64,000 bases of DNA from Hyphomicrobiales bacterium (GTDB lineage: Bacteria > Pseudomonadota > Alphaproteobacteria > Rhizobiales > JAJFHC01): the NCBI GenBank assembly GCA_021775835.1, contig JAJFHC010000161.1:12575-76574 (forward strand), given 5' to 3'. A program made the translations under genes and the position numbers. Below are positions 54,020 to 61,808 of this stretch, piece after piece; positions within the stretch are counted from its first letter, which is position 1, and the number at the start of each line of letters is the position of its first letter. The notes beneath the pieces are model-generated. The model searched no databases, had not been told where the DNA came from, and was given only the letters and a program-made list of their open reading frames with translations.

Positions 54020-54988
54020 ATGAGCAGATTTCTGTGTGTGTTGGTTTGTACGGTCTTTTTCGCGACTTTCAACATCATTGATACAAAGGCTGGGGATACT
54101 TCGGTACGGATCGGAACCGGGGGTAAGACGGGGGTCTACTTTCCAACCGGCGGAGCCATTTGCCGCCTGGTGAACCGGGGGACGAAGACACATGGTGTGA
54201 AATGTACCGTGGAGTCCACTGGTGGCTCTGTTTACAATCTGAAAGCCATTCGCGCCGGTGAACTCGATTTCGGGATTGCCCAGTCCGACTGGCAGTTCCA
54301 CAGCTACAAGGGATCATCGAAATTTGCCGAAGACGCGCCATTCGAAGAACTGCGTTCGGTGTTTTCTGTTCATCCCGAACCTTTCACCGTTGTCGCGCGA
54401 GCGGATTCAGGCATCAAATCTTTCGAAGATCTGAAAGGCAAACGCGTAAACATCGGTAATCCGGGTTCGGGGCAACGCGGCACGATGGATGTTTTGATGG
54501 CGGCAAAAGGCTGGACGACGAAGGATTTCGAACTCGTCACCGAGCTCAAGTCTACAAACCAGGCACGCGCTGTTTGTGACAACAAGATCGACGCCATGGT
54601 CTTCACCGTCGGCCATCCCAGTGGAGCGATCAAAGAAGCAACGACCCTTTGTGAAACCGTGCTGGTCGAAGTGAGTGGCGCGGTGATCGATGAATTGATC
54701 GCGAACAACCCGTATTACCGGTCAGCCACTGTGCCGGGCAAAATGTACAAAGGTAACGAAGCCGACACTAAGACGTTCGGCGTCGGCGCAACATTGGTAA
54801 CGTCCAGCAAGGTATCCGAGGATGTCGTTTACAATCTGGTCAAGTCCGTCTTCGGCAAGTTCAAGCGCTTCAAGAGATTGCATCCGGCTCTGGGAATCCT
54901 GAAGCAGGAAGAAATGATCAAGGACGGTCTGTCGGCTCCGCTTCACGATGGTGCTGCGAAGTTCTACAAAGAAATGGGATGGATGTAG
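54020..54988 (+). CDS. TAXI-family periplasmic solute-binding protein, copy 1
   Basis: A 322-residue TRAP-type (TAXI) solute-binding protein with signal peptide (about 1-24). The family pattern is TGGKTGVYFPTGGAICRLVN near 34, the long STGGSVYNLKAIRAGELDFGI near 66, and KGKRVNIGNPGSGQRGTM near 142. TAXI proteins normally deliver glutamate or other organic anions to a fused TRAP permease; none is nearby. It is clearly paralogous to the protein at 57521-58501 and converges on the ion-channel gene. Confidence 0.9.
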   Translation: MSRFLCVLVCTVFFATFNIIDTKAGDTSVRIGTGGKTGVYFPTGGAICRLVNRGTKTHGVKCTVESTGGSVYNLKAIRAGELDFGIAQSDWQFHSYKGSSKFAEDAPFEELRSVFSVHPEPFTVVARADSGIKSFEDLKGKRVNIGNPGSGQRGTMDVLMAAKGWTTKDFELVTELKSTNQARAVCDNKIDAMVFTVGHPSGAIKEATTLCETVLVEVSGAVIDELIANNPYYRSATVPGKMYKGNEADTKTFGVGATLVTSSKVSEDVVYNLVKSVFGKFKRFKRLHPALGILKQEEMIKDGLSAPLHDGAAKFYKEMGWM

Positions 54989-55108: not shown

Positions 55109-57439
55109 TCACCCGGTAAGCAAGGCCCATTTGCCAAACAATACCGACCAGTCGATTGGCGGCAGATCCACCTGTGCCCAGATGAACATCATCACGCCTA
55201 CCACGGGCATAGGATAGATGCAGACGCCGAGTTGATTGATCCTCTTGGCAAATTTGGGCCGATCGTGCCTCAACAACCAGAAACTCGCGACGCTGATCAT
55301 AATGCCGAACCACATGATGATCTGGAGCGCAAAAAATATGTAGTCGATGGCCACTAGATAACCGATGTTCGGCAAATCGTTGGACAAGCGTGCCCGCAGC
55401 AATGACACGGTGACCAGAACCAGCACACCCCCGCTGAGCCGTGGCGGCAATTCCTCGACCGGGATCGCAAACAGCAGCATACCGATGACAAACAGGATCG
55501 ACATGGGCAGCAGGATCGTCGTGCTGTAACTGGCCAGGTGCCTCGAAATCTCCAGCCTCAGCATCATTCGTGAGAAATTGACTTCTGTCTCACCTTGAAA
55601 AAATCTCGTCTCGCCAAGTGTCGAGGCTGTTTTGATCAGATCCTGAAAGATCTCGGCATTCGTGATCTGCCAGCCCAGCGACGTCTTGAAGACGTCCTCT
55701 TCCTCGATCCGCTGCAACAACGTTACGTCAGGACCGGTCAGACGCATGCCGAGGCGGTCTGTTACAAACTTGACACTCTCGCTTGTCCTGTCCCTGTGGC
55801 GGACTTCAAGCACCACATGCTGTTTGTCAAACGGGTAGTCCTTGAACTGAAAGTCGCCATGAAATGTTCCGCGCACCTTGAAGGTCTTGATGGTCATGCC
55901 GTTGCGCTCGCGCGCCCAGATCGGATTTTTGAGATCGATCGGGTTGACGGCATTGCTGAATTCTATCTTTGAAAGGTCCAGGTCGCCGCGATAACGAAGC
56001 CACAGATAGAAATCCAGAGTGTAATTGCCGGTTGCCGTATTCAGGTTGCTCACTTCATTAAGGTCGATACCGAAATAGACGATTTGGGTCGCATGCATAT
56101 ACCCTTCTTTGAAGGGGATAATGGCTGCAGCTTCAAGCTTGTCGGAAAATTCCGGAACCATGACAGGGTTCGGCACCGGTTCCAGTTGGACTGGCGCGGA
56201 AATAAACTCGGCCAACTCGAAAATACCAACCGGAACGGTCTTGATGGCGTCGCCGGAACTGTTGAAATAGATTTTTCCGGTTATGCCGGAAAAAGCCTTC
56301 ACTCGTGAGTCGATGCTACTGAGAAACGCCCGGATTTTTTCTCTGTCTGCGGCGATATCGGTTCCCGACAATCCGGCCTTGGTGATGGCTTCGACGGCCA
56401 CACTTGCGGCATCGTAGTACAGGGCCATGGAAGAATCCGGCGAACGGCCATATTTTGTGCGAAAAGCATTTCTGAATTGAACCGCATTCTCGTTGGCGAC
56501 GTCCCAGATCATGGAAGTCGTTGCATAGATCTGATCGGTAAAGTCGCCAGGCGAAGTCTTCAGCACGGCATCCGGTTCAAATTTGTCGGGAAATTGCTGA
56601 TTGATCGCATCGGCACCGAAGACAGGGAGAGCAAAGCCCGAGTTGCGCATCTCGCGGACGAAGTGCGCGGCGTTGGTCGCGTTCATGGCAAGGAACACCA
56701 TGCCACTGTCCGGCAGCAGCGAGAGTTCGGACACAACGTCCGCCATGTTGAGGTCAATCTCCGGATCGTTCGGGTCCAGCTCGTATTTGTGCGCGATCTT
56801 GAGCGGCAACTCTTCAACCGAGGACACGAAGGCTTCCGAAAGTGATTTGCCGTACGCACTGGTCGTTGAGATCAGCGTGGCGGCCTTGAACTTCAGGATA
56901 CTGTTGATGTAGTTCGCAATAAAATCCGCCTGAAGGCGGTTGTTGTAAACCACCCTAAAATACCAGGGGTTGTTGACCGTGAGGGCGTTTGCCGTAGCCG
57001 TGCCGGAAATCGCGGGTATCTTGTGTTCATTGTAGACCGGAGCGGCCGCGATCGAGGCGCCACTGGTCCGGTGGCCGAGGACAAGCAAAACATTGCCGTC
57101 TTTGACAGCCTCGTTTGCCACTTTCTCTGCCGTCTTCGGATCGTTCGCATCGTCATAGATCGAAATTTTTATGAGCCTGCCGCCGATACCGCCGGCCGCA
57201 TTTGCCTGATCGGCTCGCAGTTGTGCTGCGTCAACCATGCTCTGGCCCAGAGGCGCATCGGCGCCGCTCATCGGACCTACGACTGCGATCACCCATGGGT
57301 CGAGGACGGCGGCTTTCGTTTTGTCGGAGTCTTGTGCGTGGGACGAGGTCGGAAACACTAGAAAAGCTGCGATCAGGATGACAGCAGCCTGCAAAAGAAA
57401 CCTCGACAGGATCGTCGCCGGAAAAACTCTATTCATCAT
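55109..57439 (-). CDS. Pentameric ligand-gated ion channel fused to a periplasmic-binding domain
   Basis: A 776-residue inner-membrane protein. Signal peptide 1-35; type-1 periplasmic-binding (Leu/Ile/Val-family) domain about 47-420; Cys-loop-type extracellular ligand domain about 430-635 with the Pro-loop FQFKDYPFDKQ at 530-540; four TM helices (about 640-659, 666-685, 692-715, 735-755). M2-M3 aligns without gaps to vertebrate glycine receptor: PPR (665-667) against PAR at -2' to 0', then LP (689-690), Tyr694 and AID (697-699) at the GlyR positions. The PPR motif suggests an anion pore, by analogy only. The start at 57439 has a weak ribosome site. TAXI copy 2 lies 81 bases upstream on the same strand. 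Confidence 0.88.
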   Translation of the reverse strand: MMNRVFPATILSRFLLQAAVILIAAFLVFPTSSHAQDSDKTKAAVLDPWVIAVVGPMSGADAPLGQSMVDAAQLRADQANAAGGIGGRLIKISIYDDANDPKTAEKVANEAVKDGNVLLVLGHRTSGASIAAAPVYNEHKIPAISGTATANALTVNNPWYFRVVYNNRLQADFIANYINSILKFKAATLISTTSAYGKSLSEAFVSSVEELPLKIAHKYELDPNDPEIDLNMADVVSELSLLPDSGMVFLAMNATNAAHFVREMRNSGFALPVFGADAINQQFPDKFEPDAVLKTSPGDFTDQIYATTSMIWDVANENAVQFRNAFRTKYGRSPDSSMALYYDAASVAVEAITKAGLSGTDIAADREKIRAFLSSIDSRVKAFSGITGKIYFNSSGDAIKTVPVGIFELAEFISAPVQLEPVPNPVMVPEFSDKLEAAAIIPFKEGYMHATQIVYFGIDLNEVSNLNTATGNYTLDFYLWLRYRGDLDLSKIEFSNAVNPIDLKNPIWARERNGMTIKTFKVRGTFHGDFQFKDYPFDKQHVVLEVRHRDRTSESVKFVTDRLGMRLTGPDVTLLQRIEEEDVFKTSLGWQITNAEIFQDLIKTASTLGETRFFQGETEVNFSRMMLRLEISRHLASYSTTILLPMSILFVIGMLLFAIPVEELPPRLSGGVLVLVTVSLLRARLSNDLPNIGYLVAIDYIFFALQIIMWFGIMISVASFWLLRHDRPKFAKRINQLGVCIYPMPVVGVMMFIWAQVDLPPIDWSVLFGKWALLTG

Positions 57440-57520
57440 TCTAGGGTGGTTCTCATAAAGTTTCCCGATCGAACAGACGCTCAGGCATTCTCGTTGGCGT
57501 ACTGTTGGATCCGAGGCCCG

Positions 57521-58501
57521 TTAGTTATGGAGTTTTTCAAAGAAAAATTTCGCACCGTCGTGCAATGGGGCCGGCATAATGTCCTTTTTCATCTCGTCCA
57601 GACTTAGGTTTGCCAGAGCCGGGTGCATGGTCTTGAATTTATCCAGGTTGCCAAACACACTCTTGAGAAAAAGCGTCAACAGCGAAGACGGAACTTGAGA
57701 TGTGGCCACCATCGTTGCATTCACGCCAAACGTTGGGATGTCTTTGTTTTCCTTGAAATATACACTCGTTGGAATCACAGCCTTACGATAGTAGTCGTTT
57801 TCTTCTATGAGCTTTTCGATGACCGGACCATCAACTTCCACCAGATTGGTACTGCACTTGTCAGTTGCTGATTTGATGGTTCCCGAAGGATGGCCCGCGA
57901 CGAACACAATGGCATCGACTTCGCCGTCGCAAAGGGCTTGGGCCTGCAGTTTCGAACCGAATTCGCGGGTGAGGGAGAAACTAAACCGTGTCCACCCGAA
58001 CGCCCGCATGACGATATCCATGGTTGCACGTTGTCCCGAACCCGGGTCTCCAAGGTTGACACGGCGGCCCAGGAGATCCTCAAATCGGGCAATCTTGGAG
58101 TTCGAGCGCGCCAGAACTGTGAAGGACTCGGAGTACAGTGCGAAAAGTGAACGAAGGTCCTTGTGGGGTTTGGCATCGGCAAAGACGTTCGTACCCTTCA
58201 AGGCATGGGACTGCCAATCGGACTGGACAATCGCAAAATTGATCGTTCCCGCACGGAGTTTTTTCAGATTATCGACTGATCCCTTCGTGCTCTCTACCGA
58301 ACAGCGATAGCCGTTTTTCTTATTTTCGGCGTTGAAGAGACGGCAAATTGATATGGCTACGGGGTAGTAAACACCTGTTGCACCGCCGCTGCCGATCACG
58401 ATATTCTTGTCATCTGCCTGAGCGCCGCTCAAAAGCAGAACCATCAATGCCACGCAAGCCGCTGCCTTCGTGTGAAACGCTTGGAAAATCATAAACGCCA
58501 A
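57521..58501 (-). CDS. TAXI-family periplasmic solute-binding protein, copy 2
   Basis: A 326-residue paralog of the TAXI protein at 54020 (shared GGATGVYYP, ICRLFN, VESTKGSVDNL, QSDWQSHALKG and NLGDPGSGQRATM blocks). The signal peptide ends near residue 29 (SGAQA). It is 81 bases upstream of the ion-channel gene on the same strand, so co-transcription is likely. Without a TRAP permease here, it could present its ligand to the channel's extracellular region. That is inference from position. Confidence 0.9.
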   Translation of the reverse strand: MAFMIFQAFHTKAAACVALMVLLLSGAQADDKNIVIGSGGATGVYYPVAISICRLFNAENKKNGYRCSVESTKGSVDNLKKLRAGTINFAIVQSDWQSHALKGTNVFADAKPHKDLRSLFALYSESFTVLARSNSKIARFEDLLGRRVNLGDPGSGQRATMDIVMRAFGWTRFSFSLTREFGSKLQAQALCDGEVDAIVFVAGHPSGTIKSATDKCSTNLVEVDGPVIEKLIEENDYYRKAVIPTSVYFKENKDIPTFGVNATMVATSQVPSSLLTLFLKSVFGNLDKFKTMHPALANLSLDEMKKDIMPAPLHDGAKFFFEKLHN

Positions 58502-59089
58502 CCCTCACGGAGTCCAAATGGACCGCCCCCGTCTTTGATCATCTCTATCTTCGGGTTCGCTTCCTCAATGTTTTTATGTAATTTTTGCGAACACGCTGAT
58601 GTGTGATCAGGTTTTATCGTAGCCACAGATCACGCAAATATAAAGCAAAAAGCGCCCATTGTGACTAACTCAGTCCACGGTTTACTCATTAGTGAGTGAG
58701 TTGTGGAGTGTCATTGGTAAGTGTGTGACTGTTTTGCGACGAATAGTACGGTGGATGAACAAATTGCGCGGCGGCATATCTGCTTGCCGGTGAATGTAAC
58801 AGATACGCTGTCCGACTCCTGTCGACCAAAGGGTCGCGTGCAGTTCCGCATTCAGTAGCATCGGGGCATGGGCATGTACTGGATGAAGTGGACGCTCACC
58901 TGCAGGGCCTGAATTTGACATAATGAGAAACCACGGGTCACACTGCACGCGGGGCCCCAATCATGCAGGGCAATTTGAGCGGAAGGCCGTTTAAAACAGC
59001 GGTGTTTGGTAGGTTCGCGTTTCCTGCAGCCTCCGTCTTTGGTTTAGCCTGCCGCGTCGATACCATCTGGAATTGTGGAGAATGATCTA
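58502..59089. other. 588-bp intergenic region between divergent SBP genes
   Basis: A frame at 58682-58960 on the minus strand (92 codons) has no domain, signal peptide or good ribosome site and I do not call it. ACTCA-TTAG-TGAGT (58684-58697) is a small perfect dyad, and TGTGATC (58602) and GATCACG (58628) are related half-sites 19 bases apart. The region is AT-rich near 58560-58650 and probably holds promoters for both genes. Confidence 0.45.
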
Positions 59090-59896
59090 ATGAATTGTTT
59101 TCAAATAAAAAAATCAACGATCCGACTGCTGACAATTTCAGTGTTGTTGCTGCTGGGAGCGAATTTGTCCATACCTGCATTCGCGCTGACGGCGGAAGAA
59201 GCAGCGAAGAAACTTGAGGGCATGACGTGGTATACGGAAGAGTATCCGCCCTATAACTTTGCCGGAGAAGATGGCGCTCCAACTGGAATGGCCGTCGATA
59301 TCCTTTTGGCAGCGTTCAAGAAGGCGGGCGTCGGTGTGGCCACATCCGACATCAAGATCGTTGCCTGGAACAGGAGCTACAAATATGTCCAGAGCAAGCC
59401 GGGGACGGCTCTGTTCAGCATGACGTATACGCCCGAGCGCGAAAAGATCATGAAATTTGTCGGCCCGGCCATTCCCCTGGCGATTTCCATAATCGCGCCG
59501 ATAGACAGCAAGATCGTTGCCAAGAAGGCCAAGGACTTGCGTAAACTCAAGATCGGTGTCGTGCGCAACGACATTGGCGATCAACTTGCCTCGAAACTGA
59601 CGCTGGAACCCGATGCAATCAAGAGGATAACGTCCGCCAAACAGCTGTATGCCCTGCTGAAGTCAGGCAAGGTCGATGTTGTCGTCTACGCCGTGGACGT
59701 GTTCAAGAACGTGATAAAGAAAGCCGGTGGCGATCCCAGTCAATATGAGGACGTTTTTGTCCTGAAGGAAGGGCAGTCCGGCTATGCATTTCATCAATCC
59801 ACAGACCCGGCCGTCCTGAAGCACCTGCAAGGGGCCATAGATGAACTGAAGGCTGACGGGACAATTGATAAGATTATTGCCGGGTACAACAATTAG
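59090..59896 (+). CDS. Family 3 (amino-acid type) periplasmic solute-binding protein
   Basis: A 268-residue extracellular solute-binding protein: signal peptide to about residue 31 (SIPAFA), TWYTEEYPPYNFAGEDG near 44, PTGMAVDILLAAFKKAG near 63 and the AFHQSTDP segment near 228. The fold is that of polar amino-acid ABC transporters and also of sensor-kinase and glutamate-receptor ligand domains. No ABC permease or ATPase gene is next to it. ATG 59090 (GGAG upstream) is preferred over the GTG at 59075. Confidence 0.87.
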   Translation: MNCFQIKKSTIRLLTISVLLLLGANLSIPAFALTAEEAAKKLEGMTWYTEEYPPYNFAGEDGAPTGMAVDILLAAFKKAGVGVATSDIKIVAWNRSYKYVQSKPGTALFSMTYTPEREKIMKFVGPAIPLAISIIAPIDSKIVAKKAKDLRKLKIGVVRNDIGDQLASKLTLEPDAIKRITSAKQLYALLKSGKVDVVVYAVDVFKNVIKKAGGDPSQYEDVFVLKEGQSGYAFHQSTDPAVLKHLQGAIDELKADGTIDKIIAGYNN

Positions 59897-59939: not shown

Positions 59940-61580
59940 CTATTCCCGGCGCAGCTTCGACCAGATCTGCTTGTATGCGTCTGTCACGCTTGCCGGCAAT
60001 GGTGGCAATACCGCCAGTCGTTTCATGACATTCTTGGGCGGGTAAAGACCAGGATCGTTCAACAGGGCCGGTTCGATGTACGGCGCTGCCGGGACAATTG
60101 GATTGGCAAATTGCAGGAAATTGGTGTTGGCGGCGGCAATCTTCGGTTTCATCAGATAGTTGATCAGTTTGTAGGCGCCGTCGGCGTTGCGGGCATAACG
60201 GGGAACCACGAGGCGATCGAACCACAACAGGCTGCCGCTGGACGGCACGTGATAGGAGATTGTGCCGATGCCCGACTTCTGTGCGTTGTCGCGAGCCAGA
60301 AACATGTCGCCCGAGTAGCCAATGGCGACGCAGTATTTGCCCTTGGACATGTCGTCGATAATCCTGTCCGCGGCGACCGCGTTTATGTATCTCCCGACCT
60401 GCGACAACCGCTGGTCGACCTTGGCCAGAATTTCCGGCGTGATGTTGTTGAGGTCGCCTCCAAGGTAGGCAATCAGGAGCGGCATGATATCGCCGGCTTC
60501 GTCGACGACGGCCAGCCCGCATTGAGACAGTTTGGCAGCAAGTTTCGGATTCAGGAACAAATCCAGACTGCTGAAATCCAGTCCTCTGCTGATCTTGTCG
60601 ACCTTGGTCTGGTTGACGCCGATTCCGACAGTTCCCCACATGTAGGGCACCGAGTGTTTGTTTTCCGGATCGAGTATCGCCGTGTAGCGCATGACGATGG
60701 GATCGACATGGCGCAGATTTGGCAGTTTGCCTCGGTCGAGTGACGTCAGGGCGTCGCCGTCATCCACCAGTTGCTTCATGCCGCCATCTGTCTGGACCAT
60801 GACGTCGTACTCAGAGGATTTTGCCAACAGGAGTTCGGACGTTTCATCGGACGATTCAAACACCTCATGGACGACCTTGATGCTGGTTTCTTTTTCAAAC
60901 TGGGTGAGGACATTGGGGCTTATGTAGTCGGGCCAGTTCAGGACGCGAACAACGCTGCGGAGTTCCTTGCCTCGCATGGCGAGGCGTCGAAGGATGCCGT
61001 GCAAGGTGTTGCGAGTCAGCAGACCCGTGACCTTCAGGCCGTCGTCTTGCTGGAATATTTCGACAGCTGAAAACGTGGCAGGTCCAAAGACACCGTCGGT
61101 CGGACCGGACGCATAGCCAAGCTTGTTCAGGGCCGACTGGGCGCCCCGAACCTCCTTGGGATCGACCACCAGATCCTGGCCGGCGACATTGCCGGTGCCC
61201 CAGCCTTCCTTGATCCAGGCTGTCGTAAACAGCGAATGGATGACTTTTCTGGCCGTTACCTTGGGCTTGAGGTCGACCCGCCTGAAATGTTTCAGCAATG
61301 CCGCAATCGTTGGGTTGTCGAGTTCACGGCTCATCTCGGCGTCGTTGAGATAGCCAAGCCGGCGCAACAATCGCTGGATTGTCGCGATCTCATTGATTTC
61401 CAAAGCCTCCAGGCCGCCGAGGTTTTTCAGCTCCGAGAGGCTGCGGCCGTCCGCTGCGGGCTCGACCTCCACCGGATCGGCGGAGATCAATCCTTGTGCG
61501 GCAGCCGTGGCGCCGGTCAGCGTGAACGTGAAAAGCAGAACGAGGAGTGCAAATATGATGGGGAAAGGTTTTTTACTCAT
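59940..61580 (-). CDS. Peptidoglycan-binding / PotD-type solute-binding fusion
   Basis: A 546-residue exported protein. Signal peptide to about 28 (GATAAA). A helical domain at 30-125 is followed by a PG_binding_1 domain near 130-195 (RGAQSALNKLGYASGPTDGV, then FGPATFSAVEIFQ). From about 205 there is a spermidine/putrescine-type (PotD) solute-binding domain: VLNWPDYISPNVLTQFEKE, TDGGMKQLVDDGDA, YMWGTVGIGVNQTK, and a late Cys-Gly pair. Binding to the cell wall would fix the ligand sensor in the periplasm. Longer frames upstream lack a ribosome site. No polyamine permease is present. Confidence 0.82.
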   Translation of the reverse strand: MSKKPFPIIFALLVLLFTFTLTGATAAAQGLISADPVEVEPAADGRSLSELKNLGGLEALEINEIATIQRLLRRLGYLNDAEMSRELDNPTIAALLKHFRRVDLKPKVTARKVIHSLFTTAWIKEGWGTGNVAGQDLVVDPKEVRGAQSALNKLGYASGPTDGVFGPATFSAVEIFQQDDGLKVTGLLTRNTLHGILRRLAMRGKELRSVVRVLNWPDYISPNVLTQFEKETSIKVVHEVFESSDETSELLLAKSSEYDVMVQTDGGMKQLVDDGDALTSLDRGKLPNLRHVDPIVMRYTAILDPENKHSVPYMWGTVGIGVNQTKVDKISRGLDFSSLDLFLNPKLAAKLSQCGLAVVDEAGDIMPLLIAYLGGDLNNITPEILAKVDQRLSQVGRYINAVAADRIIDDMSKGKYCVAIGYSGDMFLARDNAQKSGIGTISYHVPSSGSLLWFDRLVVPRYARNADGAYKLINYLMKPKIAAANTNFLQFANPIVPAAPYIEPALLNDPGLYPPKNVMKRLAVLPPLPASVTDAYKQIWSKLRRE

Positions 61581-61808
61581 GACGGGACCAAGACCTGACG
61601 ATGTGACGCGCGAACTTGCGCAGGACAACGGCCCCTTCCGTCGTATCATCAGTCGGTCCCCCCAGCGAGAGGCCGTCAATTTAAATGCGAAACTTAGTGT
61701 AACACCTGCTCACAATTGCGGGAAGGGTTTTTACCCATTTTGATAGGGACGAGTACACGTGCAGATGAATCTGTCTGACCGGCTGGATCAACAAAGGCAA
61801 GAATTAGT

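Follow-up and report, generated by a model that had tools for sequence, protein, structure and literature searches.

Pentameric ligand-gated ion channels (pLGICs) that carry an N-terminal periplasmic-binding protein domain of type 1 (PBP-I) have been known as such since 2004. In the parts of their article that deal with bacterial channels, Tasneem et al. 2004 (PMC549065) describe PBP-I-fused pLGICs in two alphaproteobacteria, Magnetospirillum magnetotacticum and Bradyrhizobium japonicum, expect both ion selectivities among bacterial channels and report stand-alone type 2 (PBP-II) genes near some of them. In the present study, we analysed a 64000-nucleotide stretch of contig JAJFHC010000161.1 from a Hyphomicrobiales bacterium (the window), in which a gene on the minus strand (55109..57439) encodes a PBP-I-fused channel. 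A preliminary description of this DNA had allowed that the fusion itself might not be new, and the 2004 account bears this out. The clade to which the window protein belongs, with its anion-type pore filter and its neighbouring TAXI-type solute-binding protein genes that lack a permease gene, nevertheless appears to be a new variant among these known fusions.

The 776-aa product, with an ATG start, was analysed by Pfam and phmmer searches and by structure prediction, and these data clearly confirm that one open reading frame contains a PBP-I domain, a Pro-loop extracellular domain (ECD) and four transmembrane helices, as had been proposed for it. The following features all lie on the minus strand. 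A signal-peptide-like N-terminus (residues 1-36; 57332..57439) was read by eye, its cleavage near ...SHAQ being a guess, and the AlphaFold2 model places a helix at residues 8-28, followed by a low-confidence segment at 29-43. The LIVBP-type clamshell (about residues 46-421; 56177..57304) is recognized both by its modelled fold and by PF13458 (residues 49-392, E 2.9e-48). It is followed by the ECD (about residues 424-633; 55541..56170), which ends with the pre-M1 Arg633 and includes the Pro-loop FQFKDYPFDKQ, already noticed in the preliminary description and located at residues 530-540 (55820..55852). The membrane domain M1-M4 (residues 635-756; 55172..55537) was assigned from DSSP of the model and from phmmer, with less confidence for the M4 part; within it, the M2 stretch from -2' to 21' (PPRLSGGVLVLVTVSLLRARLSND) occupies residues 665-688 (55376..55447).

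In the single-chain model (pLDDT 83.5, pTM 0.76), the clamshell is followed by ECD β-strands that preserve the pLGIC strand order and by helices at residues 635-658, 664-688, 692-724, 728-741 and 744-756. The sequence hallmarks of pLGICs are also present, namely the Pro-loop YPFD (535-538), the pre-M1 R633 and P690 in the M2-M3 loop, and there is no cysteine around residues 520-550, so that the protein is not of the metazoan Cys-loop type. When residues 425-776 were compared with PDB sequences by phmmer, the best match was a chimaeric GABAA receptor (6cdu, E 1.8e-11), and a GLIC-GLRA1 chimaera (4x5t, E 8.8e-10) and 2yks, a Cys-loop channel chain with the ELIC sequence (E 2.7e-9), were also found. 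The domain search thus supported the PBP-I half of the prediction strongly and the channel half less so: PF02932 scored 17.8 bits against a cut-off of 28.1 (residues 644-719) and PF02931 gave no match at E 0.01, both of which speak against a channel assignment, and the NCBIfam model LGIC_1 matched residues 516-744 (E 6.8e-11), under its cut-off. We do not take these low scores as an exclusion, because the curated cut-offs also miss a short channel of the comparison set (L091). The 50 matches listed for each structure search with the whole model are PBP-type chains from binding proteins or from the ligand domains of glutamate receptors and include no pLGIC, which is uninformative since the PBP domain fills the match list.

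A homologue search with the channel part returned 72 proteins with 34-94% identity over that part, which makes a chance resemblance very unlikely; a protein had to measure 0.55-1.75 times the length of the query to enter this list, and short channels were therefore outside its reach. Precomputed PBP-I domains are found in 70 of the 72, the remaining two being proteins of 447 and 459 aa (P0038 and P0045), and the fusion is present on a complete genome (CP018226, locus L003) and on a 4.79-Mb contig of Sulfitobacter sp. SK012 (P0034). In addition, we scanned genome contigs with no length limit. A pLGIC membrane part was found in 14 of 72 loci (L001-L012, L016 and L060), and all 14 show, in frame with it, a PBP match that spans 250 columns or more. 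According to the record titles, such in-frame fusions span the Alpha-, Gamma- and Deltaproteobacteria and a cyanobacterium. The possibility that two normally separate genes were joined here by an assembly or frame error is thereby refuted; no point in its favour was found, and we give it practically no credence. In the order to which G001 belongs, sampled with 397 genomes, the window type occurs in three (G001, G043 and G046) and other members have channels of 330-410 aa, while frames of 767-884 aa match in 17 genomes, with PBP-I present in both that were checked (L090 and L106). In 13 genomes of the genus Magnetospirillum, the PBP-pLGIC type reported by Tasneem et al. was not found; three matched, all at ECD positions only, two of them in frames of 1011 aa and 1007 aa (PF00924 being present in the latter, L038) and one, weakly, in a 407-aa frame.

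The filter of the pore

Over M1, M2 and the beginning of M3, the membrane part aligns by phmmer without a gap with those of the glycine receptor (GlyR) and GABAA receptors, the PPR of the window protein standing opposite PAR, LPNIGY opposite LPKVSY of GlyR and AID opposite AID of GlyR. A one-residue gap then falls inside M3. The PPR, LPxxxY and AID correspondences given in the preliminary description are thus borne out, and its gapless M2-M3 alignment holds as far as the start of M3. In animal receptors, PAR goes with anion selectivity. The passages on this motif in Tasneem et al. (PMC549065) and Jaiteh 2016 (PMC4795631) agree with that rule for animal receptors.

The filter is a property of the whole clade. 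No acid is found at -2' or -1' in any of the 72 homologues and all 72 have Arg at 0', the triplets being PPR (54), APR (8), VAR (6), AAR (2), PAR (1) and GPR (1); even in distant members (P0067-P0072), which read GPPFVAR, the acid is missing and R0' is retained. Higher in the pore, Arg 15' and Arg 17' are both present in 65 of 65 close homologues. By contrast, Asp or Glu was read by eye at -2' or -1' in 20 of the 23 other channels aligned from the sampled order (the exceptions are L104, L095 and L107), although two of the 23 (L091 and L097) were aligned with gaps and their positions are less sure. These channels were drawn from 30 loci, with L084 (internal stop) and L102 excluded and L081 and L083 having no membrane-part row. 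A second PBP-pLGIC family of the same order (L090 and L106) has Glu at -2' and lacks the Arg at 0', so that the anion-type filter belongs to the window clade and its distant kin and not to PBP-pLGICs generally. We also considered the gapless M1-M2 linker as a mark of anion channels and dropped it, as many bacterial channels with an acid at -2' are likewise gapless. The preliminary description held that an anion-type motif would be novel in such a fusion, and a chloride-channel-like pore motif in a PBP-I-fused channel family does look new. Anion selectivity of the pore is a fair prediction from this motif.

Binding-protein genes beside the channel

A TAXI-type solute-binding protein gene (57521..58501, minus strand; TIGR02122, E 1.6e-81) lies upstream of the fusion across an 81-bp gap, and a second one (54020..54988, plus strand; TIGR02122, E 1.3e-102) is convergent downstream; the preliminary description names neither. 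Scans for regulatory sites, which we did not use as evidence, gave promoter-like sites at the shuffle level (3 against a mean of 3.0) and 14 terminator-like sites against a shuffle mean of 4.6, with none listed inside the gap (57440-57520). Eight distinct close loci were compared, namely L001-L007 and L109 (L108 duplicates the L001 contig and was not counted separately), and in every one a TAXI gene adjoins the fusion. It is upstream and co-directional in six (a 711-bp open stretch in the case of L006) and convergent downstream in five, with TAXI genes on both sides in three.

The distance of these genes from a permease gene was determined in the relatives G001 and G046, and not in the window itself, where no permease profile search was made. 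In these two genomes, whose channel genes lie on long unbroken contigs (4.8 Mb in G001 and 5.3 Mb in G046), all ten other clear TAXI genes (PF16868 at E < 1e-30, weaker matches being excluded) have a DctM match starting within 2 kb, whereas the nearest DctM to the channel-linked TAXI genes is 169 kb (G001) or 15 kb (G046) away. The channel-linked genes are thus the sole clear TAXI genes in these two genomes without a permease gene within 2 kb, and they depart from the canonical TAXI-TRAP layout, in which TAXI stands beside DctM or DctQM; a review states, where it treats this group, that TAXI-TRAPs are always found with fused DctQM (PMC5812351). In the draft G006, the contig with the channel-linked TAXI gene carries no DctM, and both other TAXI genes have one within 3 kb; in the draft G043 neither channel-linked TAXI gene has DctM on its contig. 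Orphan TAXI genes, as putative partners, look to be a new feature of this channel family.

Binding proteins recur beside other members in different forms. In two deltaproteobacterial loci, a GluR0-like gene (SBP_bac_3 with an inserted Ion_trans_2) is found directly upstream of the PBP-pLGIC gene (L010:2372-3475) or second upstream, with an Lcl_C-domain gene between (L060:4833-5915), which places two unrelated neurotransmitter-receptor-like channels in neighbouring genes. A triple fusion, in which a PBP-II domain follows M4 of a PBP-I-pLGIC, is encoded by a cyanobacterial locus (L008:6558-10325) and by P0066. A second binding protein therefore recurs in trans (TAXI), as a neighbouring channel (GluR0-like) and in cis (after M4). 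Other binding-protein genes (NMT1 and OpuAC) are found near the fusion in L009, and the flanks of 58 loci that matched in the ECD only contain no TAXI match at E 1e-5. In the window, two further binding-protein genes are syntenic in L001, an SBP_bac_3 gene (59075-59896, plus strand) and an SBP_bac_8 gene (59940-61679, minus strand) with an N-terminal peptidoglycan-binding domain (PF01471), whose product is perhaps wall-tethered; the channel gene is thus encircled by four binding-protein genes.

One sensor on two kinds of pore

The most surprising part of our results is that the same sensor also occurs on a different and unrelated pore. Among the 72 scanned loci, the ECD stands on an MscS pore in 55 (all within L013-L070) and is truncated in three (L015, L071 and L072), counts that mirror the scan's two peptide patterns and not prevalence. 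All 55 MscS-type loci have a PBP match, of at least 250 columns in 51; the four with a shorter PBP part (L025, L062, L066 and L070) are at a contig end or in a split frame. MscS was recognized by a profile, which replaced a regular expression that missed members. As the sequences behind this profile were 36 MscS-type proteins from these very loci, which makes it partly circular, PF00924 was checked independently and found in 14 of 14 proteins tested. Two MscS types (L013 and L069) also contain a cyclic-nucleotide-binding domain. A search with the ECD of L021 returned 382 proteins, and among the best 120 of these, read by eye, 119 have PF00924 and 113 have PBP-I in addition. In their sources such proteins go by names such as 'ABC transporter substrate-binding protein', 'potassium efflux system protein' or 'mechanosensitive ion channel', and the precomputed domains of these fusions leave the ectodomain blank.

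The middle domain of the MscS types matched short bacterial pLGIC ectodomains in hhalign (97.9%, E 6e-13, 129 columns), whereas four controls with TAXI and SBP sequences gave 0.1-0.2%, and the strand order of the L021 model (pLDDT 82.3) closely matches that of the window ECD; we therefore identify this domain as a pLGIC ectodomain. Its coupling elements differ between the two pores. [YF]PxD and the pre-M1 Arg are both present in 44 of 44 proteins with a pLGIC membrane part, whereas none of 54 MscS types has [YF]PxD at the Pro-loop (Pro alone in 11, Asp in none) and Arg is found at the pre-M1 column in two, with 31 unaligned there. Both protein sets hold duplicates (e.g. L001 is the L079 contig), and L024 and L029 were excluded from the counts for weak extra channel-profile matches, Pfam showing MscS in both. 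In these alignments, then, the coupling elements track the pore type.

In trees computed under LG+G4, the MscS types form one side of a branch of the ECD tree (100/97; 26 of 51 rows) and have the triple fusions P0066 and L008 as weakly supported neighbours (83/56). In the PBP tree, L013, L043 and L069 group with the pLGIC types, and a single MscS clade is not rejected (p-AU 0.414), so that these sequences are compatible with one exchange of the pore or with two. Among the papers listed in searches of the open-licence PMC literature (subscription papers and preprints being outside this scope), we recognized none on an architecture of PBP-I, pLGIC ECD and MscS, and the occurrence of this sensor on an MscS pore looks new. 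MscS channels are homoheptameric and one member is anion-selective, as reported in the relevant part of PMC5661003; on this basis, we speculate that both pores could be ligand-triggered anion valves. We lean slightly towards the view that PBP-I plus ECD would be a portable ligand-sensing gate, set on a Cys-loop-type pore with an anion filter in the window lineage and on an MscS pore elsewhere, both serving as ligand-triggered anion or osmolyte valves. If so, the PBP-ECD-MscS proteins would be ligand-gated mechanosensitive-type channels.

Proposed mechanism and comparison with known systems

We propose, with a probability of roughly 60%, that the window protein forms a homopentameric inner-membrane channel with PBP-I caps, an anion-type pore and a trigger consisting of an amino acid or a TAXI protein. 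Each of five identical subunits would hold a periplasmic amino-acid-binding clamshell above its Pro-loop ectodomain. The trigger would be a solute resembling an amino acid, which the clamshell itself binds and/or the orphan TAXI proteins deliver. It would change the PBP-ECD unit, and the signal would pass from the ECD through the Pro-loop and the pre-M1 Arg to the M2-M3 loop and open the pore. With the filter P-2' P-1' R0', and Arg 15' and Arg 17' higher up, the pore would be of the anion-channel type, and its opening might allow a flow of anions (Cl-, perhaps glutamate) that shifts the membrane potential. Gating by two different ligands, as first suggested for this putative arrangement, is plausible. 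Because a glutamate/glutamine-binding TAXI structure has been described, and in view of the GluR0-like neighbours, glutamate or a relative would be the first ligand to try, as a lead and not a result.

Selectivity is the part of this proposal most exposed to doubt. In the close homologues, Glu is found at -4' in 64 of 65 and might favour cations, and 9' is Val in 62 of 65 in place of the usual Leu, a residue given for 75% of channels in the relevant section of Jaiteh 2016 (PMC4795631). The same source, where it discusses prokaryotic channels, holds the motif generally insufficient to infer selectivity, and the literature matches listed include no characterized anion-selective bacterial pLGIC. 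All of this weighs against an anion channel, and a cation-selective or non-selective pore, with the Glu at -4' or the ectodomain vestibule setting selectivity despite PPR, is a real possibility that we rate below even odds; the acid-free filter with R0' in all 72 homologues, its persistence in the distant GPPFVAR members and the acid in most other channels of the order argue for the anion-type pore instead.

The role of the TAXI proteins and of the cap can likewise be questioned. No TAXI match (E 1e-5) was found beside seven more distant fusions (L008-L012, L016 and L060), some with short flanks, or beside five loci of the second channel family, of 763-830 aa (L110, L111, L113, L114 and L116), from which we conclude that the PBP-pLGIC architecture does not need TAXI, and in draft G043 two of the four other clear TAXI genes (C34 and C101) also have no DctM on their contig, so that, in this draft, the channel may not be alone in having orphan TAXI genes. 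These results tell against a partnership and would fit TAXI genes that are passengers, such as relics of lost TRAP transporters. We consider this unlikely, given a TAXI gene at every one of the eight close loci (with titles from Alpha- and Gammaproteobacteria), on both sides in some, and the lack of a permease gene within 14 kb of the channel-linked genes of G001 and G046, where all others have one close by; in L112 (4922-7343), moreover, a short pLGIC gene has a TAXI gene after it on the same strand. Similarly doubtful, in our opinion, is a PBP-I domain that is a structural or modulatory cap only, with another ligand or pH gating the channel at the classical ECD interface. DeCLIC has an N-terminal domain that may act in this way and that is described as highly dynamic and as affecting gating kinetics in the pertinent parts of PMC9897478 and PMC12664993, and the preserved strand order of the window ECD would be compatible with such an arrangement.

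A biological role was known for no pLGIC of unicellular organisms, as Jaiteh 2016 (PMC4795631) stated in the part dealing with function. The proposed ligand-triggered channel offers genomic handles on this question, i.e. an amino-acid-type sensor, TAXI neighbours without a permease, GluR0-like neighbours at two loci and a natural exchange of pores. This exchange is a natural control for the ectodomain residues that couple ligand to pore, [YF]PxD being absent wherever the pore is MscS, and an anion-selective pore, if confirmed, would make the channel the bacterial equivalent of an inhibitory receptor.

Among known systems, the ART-LGICs described by Tasneem et al. share the N-terminal PBP-I on a complete pLGIC. 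The second PBP-pLGIC family of the sampled order differs in its distant PBP (branch 2.15) as well as in its acidic filter. ELIC, GLIC and DeCLIC are, like the window protein, Cys-less Pro-loop receptors, although ELIC needs a two-residue gap before M2 in the alignment and the N-terminal domain of DeCLIC consists of two jelly-roll lobes and not of a PBP. To our knowledge, ELIC and GLIC have no N-terminal cap. GluR0-type receptors likewise combine a binding-protein domain with an ion channel, but theirs is an SBP_bac_3 (PBP-II) domain with an inserted Ion_trans_2 pore. MscS relatives such as L021 bear the same PBP-I and ECD unit, whereas the pore of the window protein is of the Cys-loop type. 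Finally, the glycine and GABAA receptors align with it without gaps between M1 and the beginning of M3 and have in common with it the P-x-R at positions -2' to 0' and LPxxxY; unlike them, the window protein has no Cys-loop cysteines and carries a PBP cap, and its anion selectivity is a prediction.
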